Below, piece after piece: positions 15,301 through 32,925 of a stretch of 34,654 nt of DNA; positions within the stretch are counted from its first letter, which is position 1; the number at the start of each line of letters is the position of its first letter. Origin of the DNA: a virus; the IMG/VR virus record IMGVR_UViG_3300021091_005167, positions 1-34,654 of that record. One strand, given 5' to 3'. Both the position numbers and the translations under genes were made by a program. The notes beneath the pieces are model-generated. The model was not told the origin of the DNA, made no database searches, and worked only from the letters and a program-made list of their open reading frames with translations.

Positions 15301-17988
15301 GATGTTGTGGGACCTCTATCTGGGGTAGTAACTACTTCTAGAGATATTAACTCTAGAAATACAGTAAATTCATCTTTTGCTGTTGCTTTAGGAGAAGCAA
15401 ATTCAATATTGGGCATTAGTAATAATGCCTTAGCTTGCGGATCAACAAACTTTTTAAGTGGAGCAAGGAGATCGGCTGTATTAGGCGGAAAAAATAATAT
15501 AATTACAAAATTACAAACTTTTGAGGCCAATGATTCAACAATCGTGGGTGGAAGTAATAATTTAATCATTGGTGCCTACTGCAATATAGCCGGTGGATCA
15601 ATGAACAAGATTGATGCAAGCCAAACTGGTCTATCATCGATTGCAGATCAAATCTTTATAGCAACGTTCACCGGAACTGGTGTGCCGCCAAGTAATGGTA
15701 GGACTAATTTTGAATTAATTTATCCACAAGAAATTTTTACTAATAAATTAGCTATATTTAATACTGTTAATATATTCAAGAATCAAATTTATGTAGATAA
15801 ATATTATCCTATTCAAACATCTGGATATATTATAGGCTTAAATTCTGGTCTATATGAGGGACAAATTTTCAAGATTCATTCTTGGGTTAGTTTAACCTCT
15901 CCTAGTCTATTCTCTGGAAGCTTTGAGAATAGAAGTAATAATCAAATTTGTGAGTTTAAAGTATTAAAATCTGGTTTTAATAAAGGACTAACTGTATACC
16001 CTATACTATTTACAACACCATTTTTTGATACGAGTCTTAATAGTTCTAGCATATCTATACTTTCGAATATATATATTGAAGATGGAAATAAAAAAGGAGA
16101 AAGTCTATCAGAAAAATATACTATCCAAAATCTTAATGTAACTGGATTTGAAGTAAGATTTACTGGAGTTCTTAATGAAAATGCAATAGGTAATTTTTTC
16201 ATTGGAGAAACTGGATTTTTTAGTGGGTTAGAATTCAATGTTTCAAAAAATTTAGAAGTTGGAAAAATTCATCCTTTACAAAATTTACATATTGGTAATG
16301 ATGTAAATTTTAATATTGGCGTCCGAACTGGAACAGCAATATCATTTCTAGAAATAAATCGACCATATTCTAATAATTTTTATTTAAATAGCATTACTGA
16401 TACTTTACCAAATGCGTTAAAATTTAAATTAAGTAAAGATATAAATATAGAAGACGAATTCTTATATGTTGATTTCTTAGGATATACTGGATTTTTTACT
16501 GGCAATCGTAGCCCAGATCCAAATACTTACCGATATCAAATATTTAGGGTAAGTCTTCCACAAGGATATCAAACTCACAACATCGATCTTCCCGCGCAGT
16601 TTCCAGGAAATTATGGATCTAATTATGCTGTAATAATTAATCAAATAAGCGGTGGTGATAATTATTATCACTATAACATAACTGGAAGAGAAAACAATAG
16701 ATTTAAAATTAATTTTACAGATCGTTTGCTAGAAAATGCTCATTTCAATATTGGTATTTATAAAACGGGAATTTATACCGAAGATTCTGTAAGATACGAT
16801 GTTAGAGTGTATGATATCACTGGGACTACCATAAAAACAAGCTTATATGATATTCCATATGGTGATTATCCTTCTGCCGTTTTTTCAACGGTGGAAAATA
16901 TTAATTCTGATAATCATTATAGTTCTCATATTCATTCTTATAATCAAACCGGCTTTAAAATTAGTTTATCTAAACCACTGAAGAATCTGGAATCTATTAG
17001 GCTTCATGTAGTGACCGCAAGAAATACGGGTATTTATACAAGAACATCATTAGATAGGTTTACAATTGCAGATCAGAATTTAAAAATTAGCGGTTATTTT
17101 GACATCCCATTAAGAAATAATATTATTAAAAAACACACTCTTTTTGCAAGTGCATATACAAATAACCCCGCTTCTCCCTATGTGCGTAGAGTATTTAACA
17201 CTAATTTATTTAATTATAGAAGTAATGATTTTTATTCTATTTCTTTGACCGGTGCGAATCCAGTTCAACAATTAAGTGGGCTAATTATTGATTATGTTGC
17301 TACAGATATGGAACTTGATAAAAATATAGCTAAAGTTGTTCTTGAGGATTATGACTATGCTCGTTTGGCTTCGTTTGGATTTGAAGATGTTGGAAGTAAT
17401 ACTGTCGCAGGAGGAACTGGAAATTATATTAAGGGCGTTGTTTCTAATATTGCAGGGGGCACAATTAATTCGATATTTGGTGATTTTAACACGATTGCTG
17501 GTGGAAGAAGTAATAACGTTATCGATGCTATCGCACAAGAAACAAAATATCCACAGGTTGCATTTTCTAATATAGTTGGCGGATATTCAAATACAATTAG
17601 CGGTAATATACAATTTTCCAATATTCTTGGTGGATCTGGAAATTATATTTATAATGCAAATAGAAATACAAACAGGATAAGTTCTAGTATTTTAGCAGGT
17701 ACCAATAACTTAGTTTCTGGGTCTTATTCTTATGTGCTTGGAAGAAATGTGCAGAACCTTAAAGATGGAACTTCAATAATCACAGATTCAACTACTGGAA
17801 TAAAAAATACATTTCAAGATAATACTATGGTATTATTTTTCTCTGGGGGAGTTTATATAACTGGAAATGCTGCGAATATGTCTCCAATTGTTTTAGATAT
17901 TACTAAGCTCCCCCAACACACTAACACATCTAGTCTTCCAATAGGTGGAATATATAGAAGTGGAAACTATTTAATGATCAAAAATTAA
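12367..17988 (+). CDS. Giant tail fibre/adhesin: TIG domains, CBM-like and lectin-like modules, YadA-like beta-roll repeats
   Basis: The protein has 1873 aa. The N-terminal third is a series of IPT/TIG Ig-like units (e.g. RPGENILISGLEF near 22, FSPNNILLETGAQIKISG near 417, GSVIVSGINASNINI near 633). A putative-Ig domain follows (about 747-835, ending GVPTSGGTFYFKIKAIDGD). A CBM5/12-like YW...W segment lies near 875-900. Two blocks of N-x-I-x-GG-x-x-N repeats (about 1002-1085 and 1672-1799) resemble YadA-type trimeric beta-rolls. Between them are three H-type-lectin-like sandwiches (about 1395-1472, 1481-1560 and 1585-1650). The C-terminus, LPIGGIYRSGNYLMIKN, resembles endings of phage fibre proteins. 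It was probably added to the virion as a trimeric fibre; receptor specificity is unknown. The start overlaps the previous stop (ATGA), with GAGGAG 13 nt upstream. Confidence 0.75.
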   Translation: MSAIITLLQSAPTILSSDFVARPGENILISGLEFKKDIVYIAVYGISADYYYDAHGSGFKNVSGINNTLSDNIVGFTVPESGYGSSVNTNNSNPPISLSGRYQLEVGNTNGGQSVNSVPIWIVQKPTVNYISHQSGALPYDYIRVSGYNLYPDPKVYFVDESNNKVPALSIDSGIYKITGVEIISGGQYSLGDEYLFIDQRLEGFKLFDNNSASSGLLEVHSAGRGGTVGAISIESSGQFTLVNTGVLNLNYTGYYPGGLFNYISGLQIRLLYSKSEYNNSYNDFINIPNFLEVQVPPHLTKKQSILFENLKYKNNEGYLYTGFLVNGVPKIHTINKNIVYANSGVLIVSGDNLDYVSNVKIGNINIPFAYSGDNKIAFIIPDLIESNPIFVSGQYGVDTSKDSLNVLYFALSASGFSPNNILLETGAQIKISGQYLHRTNYVNIGTQNIQRNKLKINSLGTELTFPLPNTIDSDKVYLYQKDYPGTGIYVASPPYNLLNTTTKLDTNLININYLSGFDAAKYLDDVEFYVSRLEGFNDSGLYDSDIFFTTPTGNIYFNESYIISGIKTFNNITGIKIKLPREIKNPQSQIKIRRNKFKDEYILPFEKVVNVLPSIAYISQSNTTFDNLGSVIVSGINASNINIVYFSGHSGTKNILGFKNIDITDVPIIEKDLFNLTGNKEQQLTAYSKISTEIGGDIYGSGKVFLWNTFFNTGLGYENHILSNNSVRVLPLSGFKPPNSDIFTSPAFIYSPLDEPFFYAITTNSRASKFSFEYTNFNGVDYGDAPPSQEGWKINSANQLQGVPTSGGTFYFKIKAIDGDRPNEGMILWANFGVSGRSLTGPGVVYRGDFDPDKKYVGNNLRRDIVKHRVQNVQYWYAAFSSSGSYPALGNSNWLPFTNEFGSTATQLFLSESSNITSDLNIGQEGLYSGYIKTPNDINVDEGSGFYLGYDNRYNVNRPKFRVGNEFNYIKFDGVGLDVVGPLSGVVTTSRDINSRNTVNSSFAVALGEANSILGISNNALACGSTNFLSGARRSAVLGGKNNIITKLQTFEANDSTIVGGSNNLIIGAYCNIAGGSMNKIDASQTGLSSIADQIFIATFTGTGVPPSNGRTNFELIYPQEIFTNKLAIFNTVNIFKNQIYVDKYYPIQTSGYIIGLNSGLYEGQIFKIHSWVSLTSPSLFSGSFENRSNNQICEFKVLKSGFNKGLTVYPILFTTPFFDTSLNSSSISILSNIYIEDGNKKGESLSEKYTIQNLNVTGFEVRFTGVLNENAIGNFFIGETGFFSGLEFNVSKNLEVGKIHPLQNLHIGNDVNFNIGVRTGTAISFLEINRPYSNNFYLNSITDTLPNALKFKLSKDINIEDEFLYVDFLGYTGFFTGNRSPDPNTYRYQIFRVSLPQGYQTHNIDLPAQFPGNYGSNYAVIINQISGGDNYYHYNITGRENNRFKINFTDRLLENAHFNIGIYKTGIYTEDSVRYDVRVYDITGTTIKTSLYDIPYGDYPSAVFSTVENINSDNHYSSHIHSYNQTGFKISLSKPLKNLESIRLHVVTARNTGIYTRTSLDRFTIADQNLKISGYFDIPLRNNIIKKHTLFASAYTNNPASPYVRRVFNTNLFNYRSNDFYSISLTGANPVQQLSGLIIDYVATDMELDKNIAKVVLEDYDYARLASFGFEDVGSNTVAGGTGNYIKGVVSNIAGGTINSIFGDFNTIAGGRSNNVIDAIAQETKYPQVAFSNIVGGYSNTISGNIQFSNILGGSGNYIYNANRNTNRISSSILAGTNNLVSGSYSYVLGRNVQNLKDGTSIITDSTTGIKNTFQDNTMVLFFSGGVYITGNAANMSPIVLDITKLPQHTNTSSLPIGGIYRSGNYLMIKN
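15370..15620 (+). repeat. YadA-like beta-roll repeat block 1 (protein level)
   Basis: Within the 1873-aa protein, short repeats of about 14-16 residues recur: SAVLGGKNNIITK, STIVGGSNNLIIG, CNIAGGSMNKID. The pattern N-x-I-x-GG-x-N-x-I is typical of the head repeats of trimeric autotransporter adhesins and some phage fibres. Confidence 0.65.
17380..17765 (+). repeat. YadA-like beta-roll repeat block 2 (protein level)
   Basis: This is a longer second set near the C-terminus: NTVAGGTGNYIKG, SNIAGGTINSIFG, NTIAGGRSNNVID, SNIVGGYSNTISG, SNILGGSGNYIYN, SSILAGTNNLVSG, SYVLGRNVQNL. The regular spacing and Gly-Gly turns indicate a trimeric beta-roll just before the C-terminal tip. Confidence 0.7.
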
Positions 17989-18770: not shown

Positions 18771-18799
18771 ATAGTACTATAATTTTAGTATTATGTCAA
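18771..18799 (-). promoter_or_regulatory. Sigma70-like promoter, predicted leaderless, for the annealing-protein gene
   Basis: TTGACA, 17-nt spacer, TACTAT, then 6 nt to the ATG at 18764. The -35 overlaps the last two codons of the preceding gene. A start site about 7 nt past the -10 would fall on or beside the A of ATG. There is no Shine-Dalgarno. It shares this geometry with three other gaps in the block. Confidence 0.55.
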
Positions 18800-19960
18800 C
18801 TTAAATAAGTATAAATATTTTGATTCTTCCCAAAACTCTATTGTGTCTATAACTTTTATAGGATTACCTTCATAAGGAATTTTATTTAGATAAGCGGCTT
18901 TTGAGTTGTATATTTTACCCATACTTATAGTCAACTTATTAGATTTATACAATATATTATTTAGATCAATATTAGCGATCTCCTTAATATCTTCTTTTTT
19001 AGCTTTCTCTATCTTTACAATACTTGTTAAATCCATATACTGTAGTTTTATTCTTTTAATAAAATCTTGATCTTTTTGAGTAGAGACGACGAATGGTTTC
19101 CCTAATTTTCTCAAATTTTTTACAAAATTTACATCATGACTTTCGTCAATTTCATATATTATTTGAGCTATATTATCTTTATACATTGTCAAAATATCAT
19201 TACTTATTGGTTTAGATGTAACAATAGAACAATTATTTCTTTTTAATTGCTCCCCTAACACTTCTTCATTAAAATGATAATCTAGTCTCATAATCAATGA
19301 CTGAACATTTAGCTTGCTTATATCAGCTATTACTGAATCTGGTACTGATTCTATTAGTTTTCTAGAATATTCTTGTCCAATATATAAAGATTTAATATTA
19401 AGCATATTTTCACCTAGTAGTTCAAGAATGTAATTTGCTATGTCTATTGGATCAATTTCATTAATTGTCTTTGGACTTTCTGTGGCAGAATAACTTGGCC
19501 TTCTATTAGATTTATCTGCTTCTAAAATTCTTGTTAGATGTTTATCACCAAAATATGGTCCAGCATTTTCTGGTCTACTATTAGAATATAAAGATACTAT
19601 TGGTTTATTATAACTGCTTGCTACATGGACCCCAAAACTATCTGCACCAAAATGAAGAATTGCCCCTTTAATTAAATAGGCTGCTTGATTTATATTAGTT
19701 TTGCCTTGTAAATGATAACATCCCTCAATTGGTTTTTCATCTTTTCCACCTATTTGAACGATATGGATATCTTTGCTTTTTAGATACGGAGATATCAAAG
19801 ATATAACTTCTCCCCATAAATCATAGCTTTTAGCTTCATATTTACTGCAAGGCTGAAAAGATATATATTTCTCAAATGGAATTGGGCAATATTTTTCATA
19901 AATGAATGGTTTACCTATCTTTAAGCCACAATTAAGCGCGTATGTTTCAACTAGATGCAT
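18791..19960 (-). CDS. C-terminal half of a GT9 glycosyltransferase plus unknown domain
   Basis: The protein has 389 aa. Residues 1-190 match the C-terminal, nucleotide-sugar-binding half of GT9 (ADP-heptose transferase-like) enzymes: ISFQPCSKYEAKSYDLW, IHIVQIGG, NQAAYLIKGAILHFGADS, GVHVASSYNKPIVSLY. The N-terminal half of the same fold is at the end of the upstream gene in a different frame. The HLVETY at the very start of this protein fits directly after that half. The ATG at 19960 overlaps the upstream stop by 14 bp and has no clear ribosome site. Residues 190-389 are unrecognised, with alternating strands and helices. It is either one half of a two-chain enzyme, the product of a +1 frameshift, or a broken gene. 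Confidence 0.65.
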   Translation of the reverse strand: MHLVETYALNCGLKIGKPFIYEKYCPIPFEKYISFQPCSKYEAKSYDLWGEVISLISPYLKSKDIHIVQIGGKDEKPIEGCYHLQGKTNINQAAYLIKGAILHFGADSFGVHVASSYNKPIVSLYSNSRPENAGPYFGDKHLTRILEADKSNRRPSYSATESPKTINEIDPIDIANYILELLGENMLNIKSLYIGQEYSRKLIESVPDSVIADISKLNVQSLIMRLDYHFNEEVLGEQLKRNNCSIVTSKPISNDILTMYKDNIAQIIYEIDESHDVNFVKNLRKLGKPFVVSTQKDQDFIKRIKLQYMDLTSIVKIEKAKKEDIKEIANIDLNNILYKSNKLTISMGKIYNSKAAYLNKIPYEGNPIKVIDTIEFWEESKYLYLFKLT

Positions 19961-21866
19961 ATTTATAGTCCTTGTAAGCTATCTTTGTTTTACCATTGTG
20001 AAGATATGTCAAAACTCTTTGGGTTTGCGTATATGGTAAAAATGCTATCTCAAAATATCCTGTATGATTTCCTATTCCCTCCAACCACACTAAACTATCC
20101 ATTTGGGGAATATATTGTATTACTTTATGTACATACTCATTGCCTTCGAGGATTTCAAAATATTCTGGTTTTGTAGCAACGTATAGATTATATTCTGGAT
20201 ATTGCTCTTTTATTGATTGAAATAAACTCGTAGATAAAAATACATCACCTATGCTTTCTGGCATTACATATAATAATCTTTTTCCGTTATCGTTTTTATC
20301 TAAAAGATCTTCAAATTGGGCGGATTTATTCTTTGCATTCTCTTGCAAGGCAACATTACGAAAATAATTTTCTATGTCTATTCTTTTGGTGCCTTTCTTA
20401 ATTTCATTCATCCAATATTTATGGCCATCGTCATTTTGATCAACCGTATGCATTTTTAATATATTATGATACATAAATATCAACCATTCTGAATCATCAT
20501 TAATTTCTGGGATCGTTGCGTATGGATCTTTTTCATCTATTTTAAAAATTAGATCTTTATCTATAGTTTTTGATGCGTCTGCAAAATTTTCTATAATTTT
20601 CCCAATTGTTTCTACGGAAAAATTATCAAGTGTCCATTTTCTGGCTTCTAGTCCAAGTCTTAGTCTTTCTTCTTTATGCATAGTGAAAGCTTTATTTATG
20701 TTATCTGCTATGGATTTAGGACTTGTAGATGCTTTAATAAATTCTGTTCCGTGCTCTCTGTATTCAGACCAATCGAGAGCCAAGCTATGAGCTTCTTCTT
20801 TGCACATTTCTTCTCCGCAAGAATAGTTTGTGACTAAAGTAAGAAGTCCTGCTAATTTAGCTTCTTGAATTGGTATTTCTTGTCCTCCGCTTGTAAACGG
20901 ATGACAATAGACATCCATTAAATTATATATCTCATTTAATTGTTCTTCTGTGACTCCTATTGACACATTTGTTGTCGTTTGTGTCTTTTGAGCTCCGCAA
21001 TGCTTGCAGTCTAGATCTTGTCCTGTAAAGTTCTTGACTTCATATTCTCCACAATTTTTACATACATAAGTCGTATATATATCTTTATGATCTATGCCAT
21101 ACTCATTTGCCAGTTTTAATATATTCCATCCCTCTCCAAAATGAGTATGAAGTAGAAGCCCAGAGTTTTGTATATTATTCTGTTTTTTCCACAAAGCATA
21201 TCCCTCTAAAAGATTGGGCACGCTTTTTCTTAATTGATTTCTAAATACAAATCCGATTATAAATTTGTTTGGATCAATATTTAGCTTTTTTCTTAATTCT
21301 AATTTTTGGTCTTGCTCTAAAGGGAAAAAATTTTGTGTATCGAGCGCTCCATGAATGGTTTTTACATGAGTTTGACCAAGTTTATGCAAAGCTTGGGTTG
21401 CGAAATCGCTCCATATCCAATAGTTTTTAACTTTTGGCGCACATTTTACTGCTGAGTCTAATATGGGCAATGAATCTAGTGTCGTCCATATTACTGAATT
21501 TATTTTGTTAAACCATGGCTTGTCTATTGCAAAATCTACGCCCCAAATATCTTGAACCGCTATGTATATATCTGGTTTTTCTTCTTTGATAACTTCATCA
21601 ATTAAATAGGCTCCATAACTAGCCATTCTCGCTAAATGAGGATCTTTATTTAATTTTTCTAAATCTTGCTGTGTATTAGGTAATGATCCTATGCTTTTCC
21701 ATGGAGTTCTTTCTAGCTGTAGATTTCCCTTTTGCATGCCGCAACAATAATGTACAATCTCATATTTATTAGTATTGTATAAATATTTTAATATTGCCTT
21801 AGCGTTTCTGCCAAATCCAGTTTTCGCTAAAGCAAAATCAGATTGAAATAGAATCTTCTTCCGCAT
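19947..21866 (-). CDS. GT4-type glycosyltransferase with zinc ribbon, DUF4214-like linker and N-terminal half of GT9
   Basis: I chose the ATG at 21866 (639 aa), 5 nt after the upstream stop; a TTG at 21878 would overlap it. Residues 1-430 form a GT4 (GT-B fold) retaining glycosyltransferase, with KTGFGRNAKAIL near the start and the donor-site motif SGGQEIPIQEAKLAG near 326-340. An inserted CxxC...CxxC zinc ribbon lies at about 269-290. Residues about 460-510 resemble a DUF4214 unit (FMYHNILKMHTVD...YW). From about 530, LLYVMPESIGDVFLSTSL begins the N-terminal half of a GT9 domain, which stops after KIAYKDYKYASS. The rest of GT9 is in the next gene. It probably transfers sugars to a phage or host glycan; the substrate is unknown. 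Confidence 0.75.
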   Translation of the reverse strand: MRKKILFQSDFALAKTGFGRNAKAILKYLYNTNKYEIVHYCCGMQKGNLQLERTPWKSIGSLPNTQQDLEKLNKDPHLARMASYGAYLIDEVIKEEKPDIYIAVQDIWGVDFAIDKPWFNKINSVIWTTLDSLPILDSAVKCAPKVKNYWIWSDFATQALHKLGQTHVKTIHGALDTQNFFPLEQDQKLELRKKLNIDPNKFIIGFVFRNQLRKSVPNLLEGYALWKKQNNIQNSGLLLHTHFGEGWNILKLANEYGIDHKDIYTTYVCKNCGEYEVKNFTGQDLDCKHCGAQKTQTTTNVSIGVTEEQLNEIYNLMDVYCHPFTSGGQEIPIQEAKLAGLLTLVTNYSCGEEMCKEEAHSLALDWSEYREHGTEFIKASTSPKSIADNINKAFTMHKEERLRLGLEARKWTLDNFSVETIGKIIENFADASKTIDKDLIFKIDEKDPYATIPEINDDSEWLIFMYHNILKMHTVDQNDDGHKYWMNEIKKGTKRIDIENYFRNVALQENAKNKSAQFEDLLDKNDNGKRLLYVMPESIGDVFLSTSLFQSIKEQYPEYNLYVATKPEYFEILEGNEYVHKVIQYIPQMDSLVWLEGIGNHTGYFEIAFLPYTQTQRVLTYLHNGKTKIAYKDYKYASS

Positions 21867-21871
21867 TATTT

Positions 21872-22456
21872 CTACCAAAGATCGTCTTCTTTATCTGATA
21901 ATTCTGCGTCCTCTTCAATATCTTCTGATATATCTTTCTGTTTCCTATTTTCTAAAGCCTTTGATTTTGCATTTTTTAATCTTTTAATTTCTTCGCTTCG
22001 TTCTGTAGCGAAAATATGGCCTAATCCAAATTTAATATATTCTGCCACCATTCTAGATTCAGCAAATGTAAAACCAATTAGAAAGCTAACTGGAGGTTGA
22101 GTTGTTTGGGTTTTTGAGTTTTTAATTACATTTAAGCTATATCCAATCTGCTTGTCTTCTCTAATATAAGGAGAAAATTTAATTCCTAATTTTTGATTCT
22201 CTGAGTTATGAAAAAAGTCTGCGGTTCTATTATTGTCTAGAGCATCTAAAATGCCACAAACTTCGATTTTTGATAATTTAACAACGACTTTCTTTTCTGG
22301 ATTTTGAGCGTTTTCTGAAAAGTTGCCTATCTTTTTTTGATCATTCCATGAGGCTTGTTTAATTAAATTTAAATAAAAATTACCATCTATATTATTAAAT
22401 GAAAAACTACAAGCGGTACCAGTATTACGAGGTGTAGGTTTATAAATCTGTATCAT
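21872..22456 (-). CDS. Putative single-stranded DNA-binding protein with acidic C-terminal tail
   Basis: The protein has 194 aa. The core (1-150) is predicted beta-rich: GTACSFSF, then SWNDQKKIGNF, VVVKLSKIEVCGILDAL, KLGIKFSPY and IGYSLNVI, then a helix FAESRMVAEYIKFGL. The C-terminus is a Lys/Arg-rich linker followed by an acidic tail ending ELSDKEDDLW, like the protein-docking tails of bacterial SSB and phage ssDNA-binding proteins. It is the first gene after a strong promoter and lies next to the polymerase. No other SSB candidate is seen in the block. No OB-fold signature is obvious, so a Whirly/PC4-like fold is equally possible. The function is inferred. Confidence 0.5.
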   Translation of the reverse strand: MIQIYKPTPRNTGTACSFSFNNIDGNFYLNLIKQASWNDQKKIGNFSENAQNPEKKVVVKLSKIEVCGILDALDNNRTADFFHNSENQKLGIKFSPYIREDKQIGYSLNVIKNSKTQTTQPPVSFLIGFTFAESRMVAEYIKFGLGHIFATERSEEIKRLKNAKSKALENRKQKDISEDIEEDAELSDKEDDLW

Positions 22457-22493: not shown

Positions 22494-25034
22494 TTATTTT
22501 TCTTTAATTTCTCCTAGTTTCATAAATATCTTATGATCTTGTATAGCTATAATATCTGCAAATACAGAATCCTCACTCTTCTTTTTCCCTCTTATGATAA
22601 CTATATTATTTTCTACTGGTAGGCTATTATTCATTTCTTTGCATTCTTCTATCTTATCATTAAAAATCAAAGTATTTATGGTAGAATTTTCGTCTTGAAC
22701 GTTTAATCTTAGATATCTTGTTTTTTTACTGTTATTAGCAACACCTAAATAATTATCTTTAATTACTCCTATAAATAATACTGGCAAGCCATTTGGGGCA
22801 TCATTTACCTCTCTGATATTTAATAAATCCGGCTTTTGATCAGAAAATATATCTTTTAGATTTGTGTTGTATGTATAGCCAAGAAGCTTATTTTCATAAT
22901 ACCAATTAGCAAACCTTTCATTCTTACTGTTTTGTTCATAAATCTTTTTATAAGGCGCGTAAGATTTTCTAATCGTTTCTAGCCTAGAGTCTTTGACTAT
23001 AATTTTTCCTTTATCGTCTTTAGTCGTATTCAAAAATTTGATTATTTTAAATAGATCGTAATCAAACTTCTCTCCATACATCATCGCATATTTTTGTTCA
23101 TTTTGATTTAAAATATTCCAAAGTTGGGCTTCTAATACTACTTTACTCCTAGATTGTTTAAAGTTCTCAAGCGCGCCAGCTTGGATTAGAGGAGATAATA
23201 CTCTGATTGATAGCTTTGCTTGTTGCGCAGATTTAAAAACATCAAATTTTGTTGCATATTTATTTCTAAAATTATTTAGCCTTTCAATCGATTTATCTGA
23301 AATGCCCTTGATAGATAATAATCCAAATCTTATATCATTTTCTTCAACACTGAAATCCATCTCAGATTTGATAATATGAGGTGGTAATAGTTTTATATTA
23401 AATAAATCCATTTCTTTATGTATTTTTGATATCTCGCTGATAGGGTCAGGTTCAAATCTCGTCATTCTTAGCAGTGATAAAAAGAATTCTTTAGGGTATT
23501 TAAATTTTAAATATATTGTAATTGCAGCTAGTGCCGCATAACTTTGACTATGACTTGCGTTAAACGAATAATTTGCTGAGTCTTCTAAAATTTTCCATAA
23601 TACTTCACTTACTTCTTTAGGAAGATTATTCTTGATGCATTTCTTTTCAATCTTTTCTTTCCAAGATTTAATTTCATCAACCTTCTTTTTACCGACTATT
23701 CTTCTTAATATCTCGGCTTCATCAAGCGTAAATCCTATCTTATGTGCCATTTGCATAAGCTGTTCTTGATATAGTGCAACTCCGCCTGTACGTCTTAGAA
23801 TATCATCAAAAAATGGATGGATAGATTGAAATTCTCCAGTTTCTACGTATTTAGCATATTGATCTACGAACTGTAATGCTCCAGGTCGTGCTAGAGCTAA
23901 TACGGCACTTAACTCTTCTGAATTCCGAGGCTTTACTTTTTTGCAAACTTTAAAATTCGTATCTGCTTCAATTTGAAACAGACCATGAGGACTTTTTAAG
24001 TTTTGTAGCTGTTGATATATAAATACATCTTCTATATCTATATCTTCTATTTTTTTATTAATCATTTTACATACATCATAGACTACTGAAACACTTCTTA
24101 ATCCTAAGAGGTCTAATTTTACGTTAAATTGACTAATATCATTCATGTCAAAAGCGCTTACTTGCTCTTTATCTGACGAAAGTTCTAAGGGACATGTTCC
24201 TGATAAAGGGGTGTGTGAAATTTGTATGCCCGAAGGATGAATCCCTTTATTTTTAATTAAGTTCCTTAATTTAAGAGCTATATTATATATCCCTGGATTT
24301 TCATCACACCATTCTTTAAATTTTTCTACATCATCATAGGCTTCAGAAATATCTTTAACTTGCCCAAATATTTTAGGTATTAAAGAGCTTACGCTAGTCA
24401 TTTCTGATTCACTTTTTTCTTCTACAATTTTACCGCACTCTTTAATTAAAAGTTTTCCACTAAGAGTGTTAAATGTTAATATTTTGCTAATTCTATTTGG
24501 AAATATATCGTTAAGAAAATCAATTACTTTGTGACGATTATAATAGCAAATATCCAAATCAACATCACACATCAAGCTTCCGTCAAGATAAGTTACTCCA
24601 TCAACAACTTGTTTTTTTGCTCGAATTTTAGATATAAATCTTTCGAAATACAAATTGTGCTTTATCGGATCTACTTTTGTTACTCCTATTAAGAATAGGA
24701 TAAGGCTTCCGGCAGCACTTCCTCTACCTAGACCTGTTGGAATCTCATTTTCTTTACAGTAATTAATAACGAGCCAAACTAATATTATATAATCTATAAA
24801 TCCTAAATCTTCTATAACATCAAATTCGTGGTCTAAGCGTTTTTTATAATCTTTATTATTAGGTAAATTAGAGTAGGCAAGCTTTTTCAAAAAGTCTATA
24901 TTTGATGCGTCCTCAGATAAACCCAGAGATCTTTTATGTTCGGGTTTTACCTTAAATTCTGGAAGTCGAACTCCATAAAGAGGTAGTGAAATCTTTTGAA
25001 AAGAATTAATATAATCAGATATCTTCGTCGTCAT
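22494..25034 (-). CDS. dnaE: C-family DNA polymerase III alpha-type catalytic subunit lacking its PHP domain
   Basis: The protein has 846 aa; bacterial DnaE is about 1160. It begins where the palm begins, with LGFIDYIILVW and GLGRGSAAGSL (about 100-110). The metal-binding aspartates lie in CDVDLDICYYNR (D157, D159). Then come ALARPGALQFVDQY, YQEQLMQMAHKIGFTLDEAE with GKKK, and NASHSQSYAALAA. HhH and OB-fold regions close the protein (about 700-830, VLFIGVIKDN...TRYLRLNVQDE). The PHP domain is encoded separately at 25936-26697, with a proofreading exonuclease and a small gene between. It is the replicative polymerase of the phage. It overlaps the upstream 83-aa gene by 20 bp. Confidence 0.93.
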   Translation of the reverse strand: MTTKISDYINSFQKISLPLYGVRLPEFKVKPEHKRSLGLSEDASNIDFLKKLAYSNLPNNKDYKKRLDHEFDVIEDLGFIDYIILVWLVINYCKENEIPTGLGRGSAAGSLILFLIGVTKVDPIKHNLYFERFISKIRAKKQVVDGVTYLDGSLMCDVDLDICYYNRHKVIDFLNDIFPNRISKILTFNTLSGKLLIKECGKIVEEKSESEMTSVSSLIPKIFGQVKDISEAYDDVEKFKEWCDENPGIYNIALKLRNLIKNKGIHPSGIQISHTPLSGTCPLELSSDKEQVSAFDMNDISQFNVKLDLLGLRSVSVVYDVCKMINKKIEDIDIEDVFIYQQLQNLKSPHGLFQIEADTNFKVCKKVKPRNSEELSAVLALARPGALQFVDQYAKYVETGEFQSIHPFFDDILRRTGGVALYQEQLMQMAHKIGFTLDEAEILRRIVGKKKVDEIKSWKEKIEKKCIKNNLPKEVSEVLWKILEDSANYSFNASHSQSYAALAAITIYLKFKYPKEFFLSLLRMTRFEPDPISEISKIHKEMDLFNIKLLPPHIIKSEMDFSVEENDIRFGLLSIKGISDKSIERLNNFRNKYATKFDVFKSAQQAKLSIRVLSPLIQAGALENFKQSRSKVVLEAQLWNILNQNEQKYAMMYGEKFDYDLFKIIKFLNTTKDDKGKIIVKDSRLETIRKSYAPYKKIYEQNSKNERFANWYYENKLLGYTYNTNLKDIFSDQKPDLLNIREVNDAPNGLPVLFIGVIKDNYLGVANNSKKTRYLRLNVQDENSTINTLIFNDKIEECKEMNNSLPVENNIVIIRGKKKSEDSVFADIIAIQDHKIFMKLGEIKEK

Positions 25035-25266
25035 TCTTTCTTTTTTTACGTTTTTTATTATACTTGTTGATGGATTTATCTAGATTTCTTTGAAACTCTG
25101 ATAAACCTTCTTTTAAGGCTGCGAATGATTTTTCTTCATTATTCAATGCATAAAATACGTCAGCCTTGCTATTTGTTTTGCCATGCTGTAAGGTTATTAA
25201 CAGGTAGTCGATATTTTCTTTCTCAAATTTATTGAGAATATCATATATAAAATCCATTGATGCCAT
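25015..25266 (-). CDS. Small hypothetical protein in the polymerase operon
   Basis: I chose the ATG at 25266 (83 aa), with AAAAGGA about 12 nt upstream; a TTG further up would overlap the exonuclease. The middle is helical, with a possible coiled-coil (FEKENIDYLL, then EEKSFAALKEGLSEFQRNL). The C-terminus is a strongly basic run, NKKRKKRK, followed by NDDEDI. It lies between exonuclease and polymerase genes and overlaps the polymerase start by 20 bp, so it may be a small replisome factor that holds polymerase and exonuclease together. I do not recognise a family. Confidence 0.6.
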   Translation of the reverse strand: MASMDFIYDILNKFEKENIDYLLITLQHGKTNSKADVFYALNNEEKSFAALKEGLSEFQRNLDKSINKYNKKRKKRKNDDEDI

Positions 25267-25301
25267 AATTAAATTATATCCTTTTCTTATGTATAATGCA
25301 A

Positions 25302-25943
25302 TCAAATATTAATCATATATTTTATTTTATTCCATACTTTAAAATTTAACTCTAAATCTGATAAGGCGTCGTGCAAAGAATCATAATCATGATTTATATC
25401 TAGATCTTTTCCTGCCGCAGTTAAATTAGTTTTAACATTTTTAACTTTTGTATGGTATAATTTATACATATATTCTGGTAAAGTTTCTTTTTTCGAGTCA
25501 AATACTGTTGAGGTTTTTATGCCTTTGTATAAAAGATTAGTATCAATACTTTTAGATATAAAATCTAAGGGTTCCTGCTTCATAAATTTATAGTATTCAT
25601 TAATTATGTACAGATCAAATCCTACTATATTATGTCCTACTATATAATCCGCCTTCTCTATCCAATCTTTTAATGTTGGAAAAAATGCTTCTGGACTAAT
25701 ACCATTTTTTTCTATTTTTTTTGGGTCAAATCTAGTTATCCTAGCCGCGTCTTTGCTTATTTTTAAATGCGTATCCCACTTGATGCAGACATCTTTAGAA
25801 TCAATAATTTTATCTCCTTGGCATTTAAGCATAGCGATTTGCCAAGGTAAATTATGACAATAGTTTAAGCATAGATTAAATGTTTCGCAGTCTATAAATA
25901 AAAATGTTTTATCTTTATTAAATCTTAATAAATGCTCATCCAT
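25302..25943 (-). CDS. DnaQ-like 3'-5' proofreading exonuclease (DEDDh)
   Basis: I chose the ATG at 25943 (213 aa) because GGAGG lies 10 nt upstream and it overlaps the PHP gene stop (ATGGATGA). The open frame extends to 25979, inside that gene. Motif Exo I is FLFIDCETF (Asp/Glu), Exo II is VGHNIVGFDLY, and Exo III is HDALSDLEL, giving the DEDDh set. Lying between the two parts of the polymerase, it most likely serves as the epsilon-type proofreading subunit, acting in the cytoplasm at the fork. No clamp-binding peptide was identified. Confidence 0.88.
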   Translation of the reverse strand: MDEHLLRFNKDKTFLFIDCETFNLCLNYCHNLPWQIAMLKCQGDKIIDSKDVCIKWDTHLKISKDAARITRFDPKKIEKNGISPEAFFPTLKDWIEKADYIVGHNIVGFDLYIINEYYKFMKQEPLDFISKSIDTNLLYKGIKTSTVFDSKKETLPEYMYKLYHTKVKNVKTNLTAAGKDLDINHDYDSLHDALSDLELNFKVWNKIKYMINI

Positions 25944-26697
25944 GATTTTGCTCCCTCCAACTTTCCATACAAAATTCATTACTCGACATATGCTCTATCT
26001 CAGGTTTATTTAATGTAGTTCTATTGTTAATGCATCTAAAAGTAAGATAGCTTTTAAAATCTTTCCTTTCTTTATAATAAATGCTTTTTGTTTTAATGAC
26101 TTCGAGTTTATTTGATTCACTAAACTTTAGCATTTTATTTTTAAGAATATTATCAAAAATCAATTGATTATCTTCTACAAATATCGTTGGTTTATAATTT
26201 TCTATAAATGATATACATTGATATCCTTTAAATGCATTATTGAACATAAAATTATCATAGAATGGTATTGCTAGTTTTATACCTTCGTTAAAGTGCGTCT
26301 TTAAAATTTGCATATCTAATCTTGGAGTGTAGTAGAACCCTTCTGTACTGGCTTTTGTCCATAATTTAATTAATGTTTTATACCCCTCATTCCCGTTAGC
26401 GAATATAATTAACTTATGATGTTTTTTAAGTTCTTCTTCATTCTTATTGTTAATGTTCTCGCAAAAAACAAATTTAATGCCAAAAATCAAATCAATATTA
26501 TTTTGTTTTAAATTTTTATAAGCTTGAAGAAAACCACTGAAACAATCTTCTACTAAGAAGACTTTCTTTAATTTGTTCTCTTTTGCGATCTCGATAATAG
26601 AATCTGGTCCATTTTCTTCTGGACTCTCGTCTTCAAGAGTCAATATGCTTTTCCCGATAGAAAAATGGCTTTTAAACAATGGAATAACTTTATGCAT
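25936..26697 (-). CDS. Stand-alone PHP domain of a split DnaE polymerase (active site degenerate)
   Basis: The protein has 253 aa. The overall order matches the DnaE N-terminal PHP domain: a first strand with SHFSIG, a helix SIIEIAKENKLKKVFLVED, IDLIFGIKFVF, and especially HHKLIIFANGNEGYKTLIKLWTKASTEGFYYTPRLD (positions 26280-26430), which is close to the DnaE consensus for that stretch. The usual metal-binding HxH near the start and the TDH motif are replaced (SHFS, LVED), so phosphoesterase activity is unlikely. It probably binds the polymerase and exonuclease structurally. It is the first gene of its operon, directly after a promoter, with no Shine-Dalgarno. Confidence 0.8.
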   Translation of the reverse strand: MHKVIPLFKSHFSIGKSILTLEDESPEENGPDSIIEIAKENKLKKVFLVEDCFSGFLQAYKNLKQNNIDLIFGIKFVFCENINNKNEEELKKHHKLIIFANGNEGYKTLIKLWTKASTEGFYYTPRLDMQILKTHFNEGIKLAIPFYDNFMFNNAFKGYQCISFIENYKPTIFVEDNQLIFDNILKNKMLKFSESNKLEVIKTKSIYYKERKDFKSYLTFRCINNRTTLNKPEIEHMSSNEFCMESWREQNHG

Positions 26698-26703
26698 TTA
26701 ATA

Positions 26704-26732
26704 TTTATACTTTATATTATATATAATGTCAA
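26704..26732 (-). promoter_or_regulatory. Sigma70-like promoter, predicted leaderless, for the polymerase operon
   Basis: TTGACA, 17-nt spacer, TATAAA, then 6 nt to the ATG at 26697. The -35 shares bases with the stop codon of the preceding gene. The sequence before the ATG has no purine-rich ribosome site. This is the best consensus match of the four promoters in the block. Confidence 0.6.
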
Positions 26733-27721
26733 GATAAATCGTTAAAATCATCTTTTGTTGTTGAGGACATTTCTTCTAATATATCGTTTGTAGACTGGTT
26801 TATAGAAACATTATTAAACCTTGGACACCCTGCGTATTGCCTTTTTTCAATTTTAAATCCTTCGATATTTTTAAATTCACCATTGAAATTGGATTCAATA
26901 ATCTCATTCTTTTCATTTAATTTTACATAATATTCAAAAGAATCTTTATAGGGACATTTCCAATTGCCAACTCCACACATCCATTTGTTTTTGGGATTAT
27001 CTGCGGCAAAATTTGATTCAGCACTATTTATATCAAAATTATTTATATGAGTATTAACATATTCAAGATAGTATTCAAATCCTTTAATTTGATTTTCGTC
27101 AAATTCAAGTTCTTGGATTGGTTGTTTTGGAAATCTTAAAAATAGAAACCTTACTATAGGCTTAAGTTTAGGCCATATCTTCCTGCTCGCTAAACTGTAG
27201 GTCATGGCTTGAATATTAGCCTCCAAATCATCTCCCCTAAATTTAGCTTTGGAGCTTTTATAATCAATTATAAGCATTTTATTTTTCGTTTTAATAGGCT
27301 TATCGATAAATCCCTTAATATGATATTTAGGGCTATCGCTCTTTATCTCAAAAGCGTATTCTGGCGATACGATTTTACCGTCTTCACCATAAAAATCATG
27401 TTTTAATCCTACTAAAATCATATCATCAATAATTTCAAAATTGCTTATATCTAGTGGAGCTTGATTAATTAATTTTTTAGTCAATCTTTCAATCGCTCTG
27501 CTTCCTTTGATAGAGTTGCTTTTGATAATTGATGTAAAATGCTTCTTATGCTTTTTATTCAATAGGATTTCAAATATCTTATGACAAACTGTTCCTCTTA
27601 GAGCTCCGTCATTTTGAGTTTGTGGAATTTTAGTATGATAATTATTCCAATACACCCACGAGCAGGTCTCAAGAGTTTTAATTCTAGAGGCTGATAATAC
27701 TTTTAAAGGTTTATTTTCCAT
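26729..27721 (-). CDS. Cas4/RecB-like PD-(D/E)XK nuclease with probable Fe-S cysteines
   Basis: The protein has 330 aa. N-terminal motif SASRIKTLETCSWVYW has the family first Cys. RGTVCHKIFE follows, then GFIDKP (Asp), LIIDYKSSK (D-x-K) and EANIQAMTYSLA (Q-x3-Y), the ordered signature of RecB/Cas4 nucleases. Three later cysteines (WMCGVGNWKC and AGCPRF) could complete an iron-sulfur cluster with the first. It overlaps the primase gene by 19 bp, so it is cotranscribed with helicase, ThyX and primase. Its role is probably end processing for recombination or host DNA turnover. No CRISPR array or other cas gene is present, so a CRISPR role is unlikely. Confidence 0.85.
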   Translation of the reverse strand: MENKPLKVLSASRIKTLETCSWVYWNNYHTKIPQTQNDGALRGTVCHKIFEILLNKKHKKHFTSIIKSNSIKGSRAIERLTKKLINQAPLDISNFEIIDDMILVGLKHDFYGEDGKIVSPEYAFEIKSDSPKYHIKGFIDKPIKTKNKMLIIDYKSSKAKFRGDDLEANIQAMTYSLASRKIWPKLKPIVRFLFLRFPKQPIQELEFDENQIKGFEYYLEYVNTHINNFDINSAESNFAADNPKNKWMCGVGNWKCPYKDSFEYYVKLNEKNEIIESNFNGEFKNIEGFKIEKRQYAGCPRFNNVSINQSTNDILEEMSSTTKDDFNDLS

Positions 27722-28611
27722 TGTTTAATTTCTTCTTTCGTCATTTCGCCAAAATCTTTTCTTATTGGCAATGCAATTCGTATTTGATGTTTATCAAAAT
27801 GTTTTAACAATTTTTCCTTGGTTTTATCTGCGGCTAAATTTCCTGCATTATTGTTTAGACAATCGTTATTAAATGATATATAAATCTTATTTGGATTTAA
27901 AATTAGTAAGCTATTAAGAATTCCTGTACTAAGATTTAATCCAAAAGTTACTATGCTATTTTTAATTCCAACATCCCATAACGCAAGCATATCTCCTATG
28001 CTTTCTACAAGAATAACGCTTTTTTCTTCAGATGGAATATCTGAATTTATTTGTAGTGGATATTTCCAGTTTACTTTATCTCCTACGAGTTTCCACTTGG
28101 GGCACATTTTTTCATTTCGATTTAAGATGTCTCGTCCTGCAACCCCTATTAATTGTCTTTCTTTATTAAATATAGGAAAAACATATCTTCCTTTCATTCT
28201 TCCTTCTTTAAGAATTCCTCCTTCAAATTGCTCCATTGTCTCATTGCTAATCCCTCTTTTATTCCAAAAGCTATGATCTTTGACTAATTTAAGTAAAACG
28301 TCCGGCGAATAACATTTTACTTGCTTAATTTCTGGTTTTTTATAAACAGTATAAGTATTTATTGTTGGCGCTTTTTGATTTATCCATTCTTTAGCTTCCA
28401 CATTGTTAGATAAATTTAATGTTATTCTGACTAAATCTTGTAGATTACCCGTGAGATTCTCTTTAAAGTCTACCCATTTTCCAGAATCTTTATATATTAC
28501 TAGAACATTTTCATTATCAGAATCTCTATATAATGGTCTTGTTCGATATTCTTTCGAATATTCTTTGAGATTGTATCCTAAATTAGATAAAATTTCTTTT
28601 ATGTTTTCCAT
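27703..28611 (-). CDS. DnaG-type TOPRIM primase, without zinc-finger cysteines
   Basis: The protein has 302 aa. The N-terminal 80 residues keep the shape of the primase zinc-binding module (PLYRDSDNENVLVIYKDSGKWVDF) but lack the CHC2 cysteines. The middle has KGRYVFPIFNKERQLIGVAGRDI, typical of DnaG. The TOPRIM core is VILVESIGDMLALW (conserved Glu) and IYISFNNDCLNNNAGN, where the usual first Asp of DxD is Asn. It would make RNA primers with the DnaB-like helicase encoded two genes upstream. Its start overlaps ThyX by 13 bp and it overlaps the nuclease gene downstream by 19 bp. No helicase-binding domain is obvious at the C-terminus. Confidence 0.82.
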   Translation of the reverse strand: MENIKEILSNLGYNLKEYSKEYRTRPLYRDSDNENVLVIYKDSGKWVDFKENLTGNLQDLVRITLNLSNNVEAKEWINQKAPTINTYTVYKKPEIKQVKCYSPDVLLKLVKDHSFWNKRGISNETMEQFEGGILKEGRMKGRYVFPIFNKERQLIGVAGRDILNRNEKMCPKWKLVGDKVNWKYPLQINSDIPSEEKSVILVESIGDMLALWDVGIKNSIVTFGLNLSTGILNSLLILNPNKIYISFNNDCLNNNAGNLAADKTKEKLLKHFDKHQIRIALPIRKDFGEMTKEEIKQWKINL

Positions 28612-29255
28612 TGTAATGTTTCGCTAATTAAAGGAAATTCTTTTACAAATATCTTTTTACATCTATCTGCGATTATTCTATGTTCTTTCTGCGTATTTTG
28701 CTCTGTTCTTAATTCAAGGTAATGAATCCAGCTTCTTAAAGATCCTTTCATATACATTGTTGTTTCTGTGGTCAGGGGTAATACCATTCTAGCAACTTCT
28801 TTAGCGACACCATTTTCAATCATAGTTTCATAGCAATGTTGAGATAATGCTATGGATTCTGCAATCAAATGGCTAATATTTTCATATGCGGGATTTGTAA
28901 CTGGCATGAGATTCTCACCTACTTGTCTATTTTTATCTCCTTGAAGTCTTAATTCAACATCTTCAAATTCGGTTGCCATGCTGTATCTTTGACTAAACTC
29001 TTGAAAGGAAAAGGACCTGTGCCTTAGAATTTGCGCTGCAATAGCTCTGCTCGTTTTAATTTCTACTGTCATATCGACTAATTCAAATGGAGACCAATGT
29101 TTATGTTTGATTAAAAATCCTAATAATTTTGGCGCAGTCTCTGTATTCATTTGATTAGATGGATTACTAACTCTAGCACAATAGGCAACGAGATCTTCAG
29201 CATTATTTATTCCATCAATATATGGTTGAGTTATAGATATTAATTTTACATTCAT
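28599..29255 (-). CDS. thyX: Flavin-dependent thymidylate synthase ThyX
   Basis: The protein has 218 aa. The ThyX motif RHRx7S is present as R78-H-R80 ... S88 (RHRSFSFQEFSQRYS). SPFELVDMTVEIKTSRAIAAQ precedes it. The C-terminal LRSWIHYLELRTEQNTQKEHR matches the substrate and FAD region. The enzyme makes dTMP from dUMP using methylene-tetrahydrofolate, FAD and NAD(P)H, supplying DNA synthesis. It overlaps the helicase stop as ATGA and has GGAG 7 nt before the start. The length is normal for the family. Confidence 0.95.
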   Translation of the reverse strand: MNVKLISITQPYIDGINNAEDLVAYCARVSNPSNQMNTETAPKLLGFLIKHKHWSPFELVDMTVEIKTSRAIAAQILRHRSFSFQEFSQRYSMATEFEDVELRLQGDKNRQVGENLMPVTNPAYENISHLIAESIALSQHCYETMIENGVAKEVARMVLPLTTETTMYMKGSLRSWIHYLELRTEQNTQKEHRIIADRCKKIFVKEFPLISETLQWKT

Positions 29256-30742
29256 ATTAATTCTCCGTCTTCATTTGTTCCGCCTTGGTCAAAATCTAAC
29301 CTTTCATTCTCTGCGTCTACAATTTCTCGTAAAGTTCCTCGTTCTTCTACATTAAAATTATTAACATCAAAATTAATATAGTTATTGAAATATTTAAATT
29401 CATTCTCGCCAACTCTTCTGCGGACAAGGTCGTGGTGACCTGCTCCTTCTCTGCCTTGAAATCTTGTTTTAATAGCTATTAGTTTATGTGTCCCGAACTG
29501 TTCTCCATCTACTTGTATTTCATCTTGAGTCTTTCTCCTAAAAATTCCTACAAATGACGCGAACCATTGCATACGATCTGATAGTGCAATTGCAGAACTG
29601 TCATCAGTAACTTGATTTGCACTTCTGTTAAAGTTTTCTCCTGTTCTATTCAACTGCATCGCAGTAATAACTGGGCATTTAATTTCTTCTGAGATTCTTT
29701 TTAATTTATCAATCTTATCGCCAATAGCTTGATGCTCTGCCCAATTTTGACTTACTTTTTCACCAGTCAATTTGATATAATCGTAAACTATGAGCGCTTG
29801 ATTTCCTCTGCCCACTTTTGTATAGTACCATCTTCTAATAATAGATGATACTTCATCTACATTTTTATTTGCTACATGATAATGGTAATGAGTCATTCCT
29901 TTAACTTTTGGCCAAGCATCCCTCACTTTTTGGATCATCTCTGGATTTTTTCTCCAGTTGCCAGTTTCAATAAACCAAAGTGGAACGCCAGATATACTTG
30001 ACACTAGTCTCATTTGAGTATCTAAAGTAGACATTTCAGTGTCTAAAATTAAAGCTTTTGTATTTTTATTATGAACGTTTGCTGTTTTATAGGCAATATC
30101 ATTAAGCCATGTACTTTTCCCTTGACCAGGCCTACTTACTATAGAATAAATATTCCCTTGTTTTAGACCTCCATATAGATTATTAAAATTATTATATGGA
30201 GTCTTTAGACCAGTTTCTTCTCTTGGGTTATTGCCTATTTCTTCAATAATACTTTCCATTTCCTCAAATAGATTAACTGGTTCTCCTTCGAGGTAATATT
30301 GACTAACTTTATTATTATAGATTTCATCTACTTTAGAAACGATAGAGTCAATTCCGTCTTCTGCATTTTCTTTAACAAATTTCTTTACATTTTCAGCTGT
30401 TTCAAAAAGCTCTCTCCGAACTTTAATCTTACTTAATTCTTTACAGGCGTTAATTGTGCCTTGAGTATTGATCTGAGTAAGAGCCAACGCATCAATGTAT
30501 GAAAATATATCTATTTCATCTTTAAAAGAAATTCCTAAGTTTTTAATTTTTTGCGCCAATAATATTTTATCAATCTTGTTGTTCTTATTTAACTCGTCTT
30601 TTATGCATGAAAAGATTGTGGTATGTACATCATTATAAAAATCTTTTTCTGAAATAAATTTTGATACATCAAAAAATACTTCTGGATTTCTAATGAGGCC
30701 ACCTAGAACATGGCGCTCTACTTGAACTGAATATATAGGCAT
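29252..30742 (-). CDS. dnaB: DnaB-like replicative DNA helicase
   Basis: The protein has 496 aa. The DnaB N-terminal domain starts at the very first residues (PIYSVQVERHVLGGLIRNP), which fixes the start. The RecA-like domain begins near 180, with Walker A SRPGQGKST (203-211), an acidic ILDTEMS, Walker B LIVYDYIKL, the H3-type motif ITAMQLNRTGE, and an Arg-finger region near TRFQGREGAGHH. It unwinds the fork as a hexamer and couples with the primase in the same operon. The gene follows a strong promoter with no Shine-Dalgarno before its ATG. Confidence 0.94.
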   Translation of the reverse strand: MPIYSVQVERHVLGGLIRNPEVFFDVSKFISEKDFYNDVHTTIFSCIKDELNKNNKIDKILLAQKIKNLGISFKDEIDIFSYIDALALTQINTQGTINACKELSKIKVRRELFETAENVKKFVKENAEDGIDSIVSKVDEIYNNKVSQYYLEGEPVNLFEEMESIIEEIGNNPREETGLKTPYNNFNNLYGGLKQGNIYSIVSRPGQGKSTWLNDIAYKTANVHNKNTKALILDTEMSTLDTQMRLVSSISGVPLWFIETGNWRKNPEMIQKVRDAWPKVKGMTHYHYHVANKNVDEVSSIIRRWYYTKVGRGNQALIVYDYIKLTGEKVSQNWAEHQAIGDKIDKLKRISEEIKCPVITAMQLNRTGENFNRSANQVTDDSSAIALSDRMQWFASFVGIFRRKTQDEIQVDGEQFGTHKLIAIKTRFQGREGAGHHDLVRRRVGENEFKYFNNYINFDVNNFNVEERGTLREIVDAENERLDFDQGGTNEDGELI

Positions 30743-32600: not shown

Positions 32601-32925
32601 TTAAAAACTCCTTTAATGTTTTTGGTTTTCTTGTGATATGTTTATCAGTTCCAATTTTATCATCTTTTAGATTATATGTCATTTTAATATCTTTGTCAAC
32701 ATCTAATAAGGCTTTTTCTTTCAAAAGAAACTTTTTACCGTCATAAGATAATAACCAGTCTAGAGATTTTAATTCTTTTGATTTAATTTTAAACCAAAAT
32801 ATAGCTCTTGGTTCAAACTTAATTAATTTTTTCGCTTGATTTATTTCGTAGCCCCAAGGTATATTTTTTGATTTGACAAACTTTTTTATTATAAAAATGC
32901 ATAATTTGTGTCCAGATAGTTTCAC
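32593..32925 (-). CDS. Hypothetical 110-aa protein overlapping the GT17 gene by 107 bp
   Basis: It starts with GTG at 32925, preceded by AGGAGAG at 7 nt, an unusually good ribosome site that supports the long overlap. The N-terminus is helical and basic (CIFIIKKFVKSKNIPWGYEINQAKK). A middle segment with FWFKIKSKELKSLDWLL and a Lys-rich C-terminus (HITRKPKTLKEF) follow. It ends overlapping the RecA start by 8 bp, so it is coupled to recombination genes. I do not recognise a family; a DNA-binding accessory is only a guess from charge and context. Confidence 0.6.
   Translation of the reverse strand: MKLSGHKLCIFIIKKFVKSKNIPWGYEINQAKKLIKFEPRAIFWFKIKSKELKSLDWLLSYDGKKFLLKEKALLDVDKDIKMTYNLKDDKIGTDKHITRKPKTLKEFLNG

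Follow-up and report, generated by a model that had tools for sequence, protein, structure and literature searches.

Described members of the DnaE type of C-family DNA polymerase carry their PHP, palm, thumb and fingers domains in one polypeptide (PMC3666897). As set out by Barros et al. (PMC3666897), the PHP fold stabilizes the Pol III polymerase, loss of its metal ligands in bacteria accompanies a separate proofreading exonuclease, and the PHP domain may position that proofreader; E. coli epsilon is reported to bind PHP (PMC3919608). Here we describe a viral locus in which these parts are encoded separately. The DNA analyzed, called the window below, is positions 1-34,654 of IMG/VR virus record IMGVR_UViG_3300021091_005167 (34,654 bases; one strand, 5' to 3'). 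It departs from the one-polypeptide layout in that PHP is a separate open reading frame (ORF), both in the window and in all 432 related loci that have PHP and polymerase matches. By analogy, the window fits the scheme of a PHP-stabilized polymerase with a separate proofreader, with the PHP part cut free. The four genes concerned are, in order of transcription:

25936..26697, minus strand: stand-alone DnaE-type PHP protein, 253 aa (Pfam PHP, E 7e-14; Taq DnaE residues 83-254, E 6e-7; AlphaFold2 [AF2] model)
25302..25943, minus strand: DEDDh 3'-5' exonuclease, 213 aa from its likely start (longest ORF reaches 25979; RNase_T, E 1.8e-11)
25015..25266, minus strand: small protein of unknown function, 83 aa, with start and core conserved in relatives
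22494..25034, minus strand: C-family DNA polymerase without a PHP domain, 846 aa, beginning just 5' of the palm

A first-pass annotation, made from the letters and a list of ORFs, had read these genes as a dismantled DnaE, and all four ORFs are present on the minus strand where it had placed them.

A complete but ligand-less PHP protein

The AF2 model of the window PHP, built from 51 aligned rows, has a mean predicted local distance difference test score (pLDDT) of 86.6 and a predicted template modeling score (pTM) of 0.86. Residues 1-253 of the model superpose on Taq DnaE 5-259 (2hpi) with a VIA Z score of 21.2 (233 residues aligned, root-mean-square deviation 3.1). Z scores against other polymerases were 21.2 for 7pu7 (M. 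tuberculosis), 18.7 to 20.4 for E. coli Pol III and 17.7 for PolC (3f2b), whereas the top non-polymerase PHP structure reached only 11.6. Since the match to Taq DnaE extends over the whole chain and scores so far above any non-polymerase PHP, the protein is a complete DnaE-type PHP domain; together with the Pfam match this bears out the annotation of a separate 253-aa PHP protein.

The metal site is another matter. The ligand motif HHDHEH[C/H]DH, as given in PMC12926913, was mapped with the help of 13 one-chain DnaE references, eight of which have the complete nine-ligand site and five an incomplete one. In the alignment the window PHP has a ligand in none of the nine columns, which agrees with the earlier statement that its metal-binding residues are gone. 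Across 51 PHP representatives a ligand is never present in seven of the nine columns; columns 3 and 7 are poorly aligned, and column 3 has D in 15 of the 51. The absence of all nine ligands from the window PHP, taken with the intact active-site signature of the neighboring exonuclease, means that the PHP protein most likely does not proofread and is probably catalytically inactive, and that the exonuclease should be able to proofread.

The polymerase and its missing N-terminus

The 846-aa protein matches DNA_pol3_alpha (E 9e-55), DNA_pol3_finger (E 2e-32) and HHH_6 (E 4e-19), the fingers and the helix-hairpin-helix (HhH) region following the palm, and aligns with Taq DnaE 387-951 at E 8e-77. 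All nine solved chains that it matches are Pol III alpha and none is PolC. Residues D157, D159 and D308, which we take to be the DnaE catalytic aspartates, are invariant in 14 of 14 aligned sequences and align with the corresponding Taq DnaE residues. The gene most likely starts at 25034 and overlaps that of the small protein by 20 nt. The polymerase begins about where the PHP domain ends. In entry numbering, the last residue matched by the PHP model is 274 in 7pu7 and 273 in 5lew, and residue 10 of the polymerase falls at chain positions 294 (7pu7) and 288 (5lew), a numbering that may differ from that of the entries by a tag. The cut is therefore near the domain border, and the description of an 846-aa polymerase starting at the palm was correct.

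Some relatives have longer or interrupted polymerases. The polymerase ORFs of L255 (7248-10580) and L367 have an N-terminal extension of 250 residues, for which no Pfam match was found in L255. In L465 (8004-11006), L304 (5974-8958), L345 (7995-11042), L416 and L417 (7935-11416) and L468 the polymerase is broken by apparent split inteins, an N half ending one ORF and a C half opening the next, at two sites (SANYSFN/SHS and GRG/SAAGS). L416 additionally carries NUMOD4/HNH, and L484 appears to have a contiguous intein at the first site. For L465 and L416 the intein hits in Pfam fall short of the curated cut-offs, and L417 and L468 were judged from their ORF patterns alone.

A DEDDh exonuclease between PHP and polymerase

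The gene following that for PHP encodes a DEDDh exonuclease whose best PHROG family is phrog_192, "DNA polymerase exonuclease subunit" (E 6.8e-22). Its only sequence match found to a solved structure is a weak one, to the PolC exonuclease of T. maritima (E 0.0027). The signature residues D18, E20, D110, H191 and D196 are invariant in 17 of 17 aligned rows. The gene had been identified correctly in the first pass; its start is corrected here. The longest ORF, from 25979, would give 225 aa; that longer start is open in relatives L003-L005, L010, L013 and L014 but closed in L001, L006 and L007. The ATG at 25943 is preceded by GGAGGG and overlaps the end of the PHP gene by 8 nt, and is most likely the true start, giving 213 aa.

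Conservation of the split among relatives

Relatives were collected by scanning IMG/VR with the window polymerase, with polymerase and PHP profiles, and with proteins of divergent members as queries; one additional scan of genome contigs contributed nine loci, on contigs of metagenome-assembled genomes (MAGs). The scans were seeded by short conserved patterns and returned the best 80 loci each at most, so that the 432 loci are a sample of a group of at least that size. They comprise 263 distinct sequences, because one contig can bear several locus identifiers. From the 445 viral loci, 22 were left out of the 432 for want of a PHP or a polymerase match, mostly on short contigs or at cut ends.

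In every one of the 432 loci the order is PHP, exonuclease, polymerase, and the arrangement is thus no product of chance. Fused versions, which it had been proposed to look for, were not found: in none of these loci does a single ORF match both the PHP and the polymerase profile. Even L302 and L303, whose polymerases are 43% identical to that of the window in the best segment, keep the same order. Two distant loci, L489 and L490, at 27% identity to their query, have single ORFs whose polymerase match does not begin until residues 305 and 264; these look fused, to judge from the position of the match, and are outside the 432 because they gave no match to the PHP profile.

In an unrooted tree a branch supported at 100/100 separates all 31 split polymerases from 18 one-chain rows; "one-chain" here is defined by ORF length and position of the polymerase match, and long branches were flagged among these rows. 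The annotation had named a second complete DnaE as evidence that would count against it, and none was found: each of 20 long related contigs (91 to 205 kb) has a single DNA_pol3_alpha (PF07733) match and at most one Pfam PHP match. Five of the 20 have no Pfam PHP match, yet the family profile finds a PHP beside the polymerase there. A bacterial-type beta clamp (PF02767) was matched in none of the 20.

The junction between the PHP and exonuclease genes is an insertion hot spot (for example L025:6380-7354, L016:6672-7070 and L001:6538-7089). The inserts, up to about 2 kb long, include an inosine monophosphate dehydrogenase (IMPDH)/GMP-reductase-like gene, cupins and several unknown families, and gene spacing varies across relatives. 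The PHP of L022 has a C-terminal extension related to the junction inserts, and that of L026 has the same length. The overlap between the PHP and exonuclease genes was also considered as a frameshift fusion and rejected; the unrelated genes that intervene at this junction in many relatives rule out such a fusion as a general arrangement.

The small protein

The 83-aa protein between exonuclease and polymerase most likely starts at 25266. Its model is a helix-strand-strand-helix of lesser quality (pLDDT 77, pTM 0.48). Foldseek and VIA-align gave no confident fold match, the top VIA Z being 4.9 and confined to its long helix, which speaks neither for nor against a theta-like role as in the E. 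coli alpha-epsilon-theta core. Pfam and PHROG gave nothing convincing: the best hit (E 0.0012), seen in 7 of 37 members, is to an uncharacterized family. The protein is present in 204 of the 432 loci; two of the scans added 94 newly numbered loci, none of which has it, and it is also missing from the branch of L025. The tail is basic in the window and in relatives close to it and acidic in many of the rest, while a few, such as L098 and L168, again have a basic one. The term "small basic protein" therefore holds for the window and its close relatives but is unfit for the family, and the "four-part core" of which this protein was to be one part is weakened and likewise does not describe the family. 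The protein is best regarded as an optional accessory that only some members of the clade carry.

Do the pieces form one enzyme?

The remaining three proteins probably form a core, assembled in trans from a dead PHP scaffold, a DEDDh proofreader and a polymerase. The PHP protein would be a dead structural subunit, seated against the palm and thumb like the N-terminal PHP of an ordinary DnaE; the exonuclease would proofread and would probably be anchored to the PHP or close by, in the way epsilon is in E. coli; and the 846-aa protein would carry out polymerization. Binding between the parts, inactivity of the PHP, proofreading for this polymerase in particular and a role as the phage replicase are all inferred. 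A stronger form of the same idea is a natural multi-subunit C-family replicase in which PHP, itself catalytically dead, serves as a dedicated docking subunit and delivers the DEDDh proofreader in trans to a PHP-less polymerase; such an enzyme would be modular and its PHP occupancy could be regulated. We consider the odds for this stronger form about even. As to the core assembly put forward in the first pass, the separate PHP, the cut near the domain border, the lost ligands, the intact signature and constant position of the exonuclease, the single DnaE palm in each of the 20 long contigs and the surrounding replication cassette argue for it, but covariation gives it no clear lead.

Several observations weigh against such an assembly. 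Mutual information was computed for two sets, one of 100 loci (effective number 37.8) and one of 156 (effective number 63.5), and PHP-polymerase covariation was barely above the controls, for example 9.5 compared with 9.2 for PHP-primase and 8.7 for PHP-helicase. PHP residues 220 and 224 recur in most of the top covarying pairs and are read as clade markers. The genes overlap in the window, by 8 and 20 nt, but the coupling by overlap or short spacing that had been noted there does not extend to the whole family: the PHP-exonuclease gap exceeds 200 nt in 183 of 422 loci and is often filled by unrelated genes, so the two genes need not be tightly coupled. In L437 the 4.1 kb 5' of the polymerase contained no detectable PHP or exonuclease. 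The 20 long contigs are not rated complete genomes, which makes the absence of a second replicase or a clamp from them weak evidence. Finally, the PHP may not be wholly without metal: His11, two columns off ligand column 2, is invariant (51/51), and 32 of the 51 rows have a His one column ahead of column 6, which would leave room for a rearranged metal site.

The alternative that survives best is ordinary neutral gene fracture, giving several genes for the same enzyme that is elsewhere encoded by one, with no new subunit logic. It is partly compatible with assembly in trans, and we think it rather unlikely as the full explanation, though it deserves to be taken seriously. C-family genes do break: two actinophages of another lineage, Anakin and Wollypog, are split between PHP and palm, and in five of 26 reference phage records the break is within the polymerase. 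The split described here, however, is common to one group (the 31 of 31 rows in the tree above), has an exonuclease inside it in all 432 loci and goes with loss of the PHP ligands, whereas the two actinophages have intact ligands and no DEDDh gene between the halves.

A freed PHP could instead have taken on another role, leaving a polymerase that works without a PHP part. The lack of all nine ligands in the window, the lack of a clear PHP-polymerase covariation signal and the other genes often found between PHP and the rest would all agree with this, and a pyrophosphatase role has been claimed for the E. coli PHP (PMC4822814). But the gene has been kept ahead of those for exonuclease and polymerase in every one of the 432 loci, and the window protein has the full length and fold of a DnaE PHP, better suited to a structural partner than to a relic; we judge this alternative improbable.

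We give slightly less credence still to the exonuclease being a recombination or end-processing enzyme that stands where it does by an accident of operon order. It does have a PD-(D/E)XK nuclease gene and RecA-like genes nearby, but its place between PHP and polymerase in all 432 loci, the name of its best PHROG family and its one, weak, match to a solved structure, that of a PolC exonuclease, all connect it with a polymerase.

That the pieces are joined into one chain by frameshifting or protein splicing is very improbable, for although adjacent genes overlap and some relatives have intein-like halves at other places in their polymerase, none of the window's four ORFs has a Hint/intein match at E up to 1, gene spacing differs between relatives, and in many of these up to about 2 kb of extra genes separate PHP from exonuclease; the first-pass annotation had called for a check on this point.

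Genomic context and hosts

The four genes belong to a minus-strand replication cassette whose order is DnaB-like helicase, ThyX, Toprim primase, PD-(D/E)XK nuclease, PHP, exonuclease, small protein, polymerase and a possible Whirly-type single-stranded DNA (ssDNA)-binding protein. Besides the four described above, the following members were located:

29252..30742, minus strand: DnaB-like replicative helicase (DnaB_C, E 4e-25; phrog_19, E 6e-56)
27703..28611, minus strand: Toprim/DnaG-like primase (Toprim_2, E 1e-5; DNAG_N below cut-off; phrog_47, DNA primase, E 4e-23)
26729..27721, minus strand: PD-(D/E)XK nuclease, 5' of the PHP gene (Pfam PDDEXK_1, E 3e-15; gene order kept in relatives)
21872..22456, minus strand: possible Whirly-type ssDNA-binding protein, directly 3' of the polymerase (Pfam Whirly, E 0.0013, weak and under the family cut-off)

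Of the first 26 relatives, most have the putative Whirly-type gene adjoining that for the polymerase; L023 and L025 do not. The cassette is flanked by several glycosyltransferase-like genes and a GDP-mannose dehydratase-like gene (window 18791-21878 and 32819-34557). Elsewhere in the window a tail assembly protein (2953-4257, minus strand) has a Hint/intein domain mid-protein, matching phrog_32 at its start and phrog_4554 near its end, and a 1873-aa ORF (12367-17988, plus strand) has no Pfam or PHROG match at E 0.01.

No record in the phage collection matched the window polymerase at 60% identity or more, so the group is without a near cultured relative in that collection. Clade polymerases were found on contigs that binning had assigned to MAGs of Flavobacteriaceae, Saprospiraceae, Halobacteriovorax and others (L298-L307). 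These may point to hosts, although phage contigs are not binned reliably.

Implications

A large group of uncultivated phages thus encodes a bacterial-type polymerase, usually a single chain, as separate PHP, nuclease and polymerase proteins. The scaffold role of PHP is poorly understood, and a split system opens it to tests by addition and omission: because PHP has been cut free naturally, near its border, it can be left out or added back without making deletions in a large protein. The need for PHP in polymerization, the docking of the exonuclease by PHP and the assembly of a C-family core from its parts all become directly testable, and the actinophages, with ligands intact and no DEDDh gene in between, provide a matched comparison. 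If the trans-assembled core is real, a modular multi-subunit replicase is the fixed state of a whole phage clade; with the actinophage case, the link between PHP and palm would have been broken at least twice, with opposite solutions to proofreading.

Comparison with known systems

E. coli-type DnaE (Pol III alpha) with epsilon shares with the window the palm, fingers and HhH regions, a ligand-less PHP and a separate DEDDh exonuclease; the window differs in having PHP as a gene of its own and the exonuclease gene between it and the polymerase. PolC has the same order of PHP, exonuclease and palm, and provides the window exonuclease's only solved match. The window, unlike PolC, has separate genes, and its PHP is contiguous and whole, with the exonuclease after it and not inserted into it.

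Among phages, 1291 records have a polymerase match, and a reference sample of 26 distinct records was taken from these (Pseudomonas phage Y1 was left unanalyzed). Eighteen have one long polymerase ORF of 967-1429 aa, five are broken within the polymerase, as noted above, and two at the PHP/palm border. Pbunavirus LBL3 and Wifcevirus WFC resemble the window in having an exonuclease gene beside a C-family polymerase, but there it lies directly 5' of a one-chain DnaE, outside and not between; their polymerase matches start at residues 259 and 244 of single ORFs, leaving the N-terminal part in the same chain. Bacillus phages G and KLEB27-3, Rossellomorea phage phiT1, Cellulophaga phage phi13:1 and Lactobacillus phage Satyr have a C-family polymerase in two or more genes, as here, but the break is inside the polymerase. 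Where a PHP was detected in these it stays with the first polymerase part (phiT1 and KLEB27-3, and G by a PHROG match).

A search of literature titles and abstract openings, in which few subscription papers were covered, gave no description of a separate PHP gene in a phage replicase. The break is nevertheless already present in deposited genomes. In Microbacterium phage Anakin, gp56 (345 aa, PHP) adjoins gp57 (767 aa, polymerase); in Arthrobacter phage Wollypog, gp56 (308 aa, PHP) is followed by a 76-aa ORF, an HNH gene and gp59 (739 aa, polymerase). Both PHP-less polymerases are covered almost end to end by phrog_11165. Thirty-two records, Anakin among them, have a match of at least 90% identity to Anakin gp56; the others may, to go by this similarity, share its split. 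The split of PHP from polymerase, conserved though it is in many contigs of the window's group, has precedents and so is not unique to that group. As in the window, the two actinophages have separate genes for PHP and a PHP-less polymerase, cut near the same border; unlike the window, their PHPs keep all nine metal ligands, they have no DEDDh gene between, and they belong to another lineage, falling outside the window's group in a tree of 10 split, 17 one-chain and the two actinophage rows (L315, the longest branch, left out).

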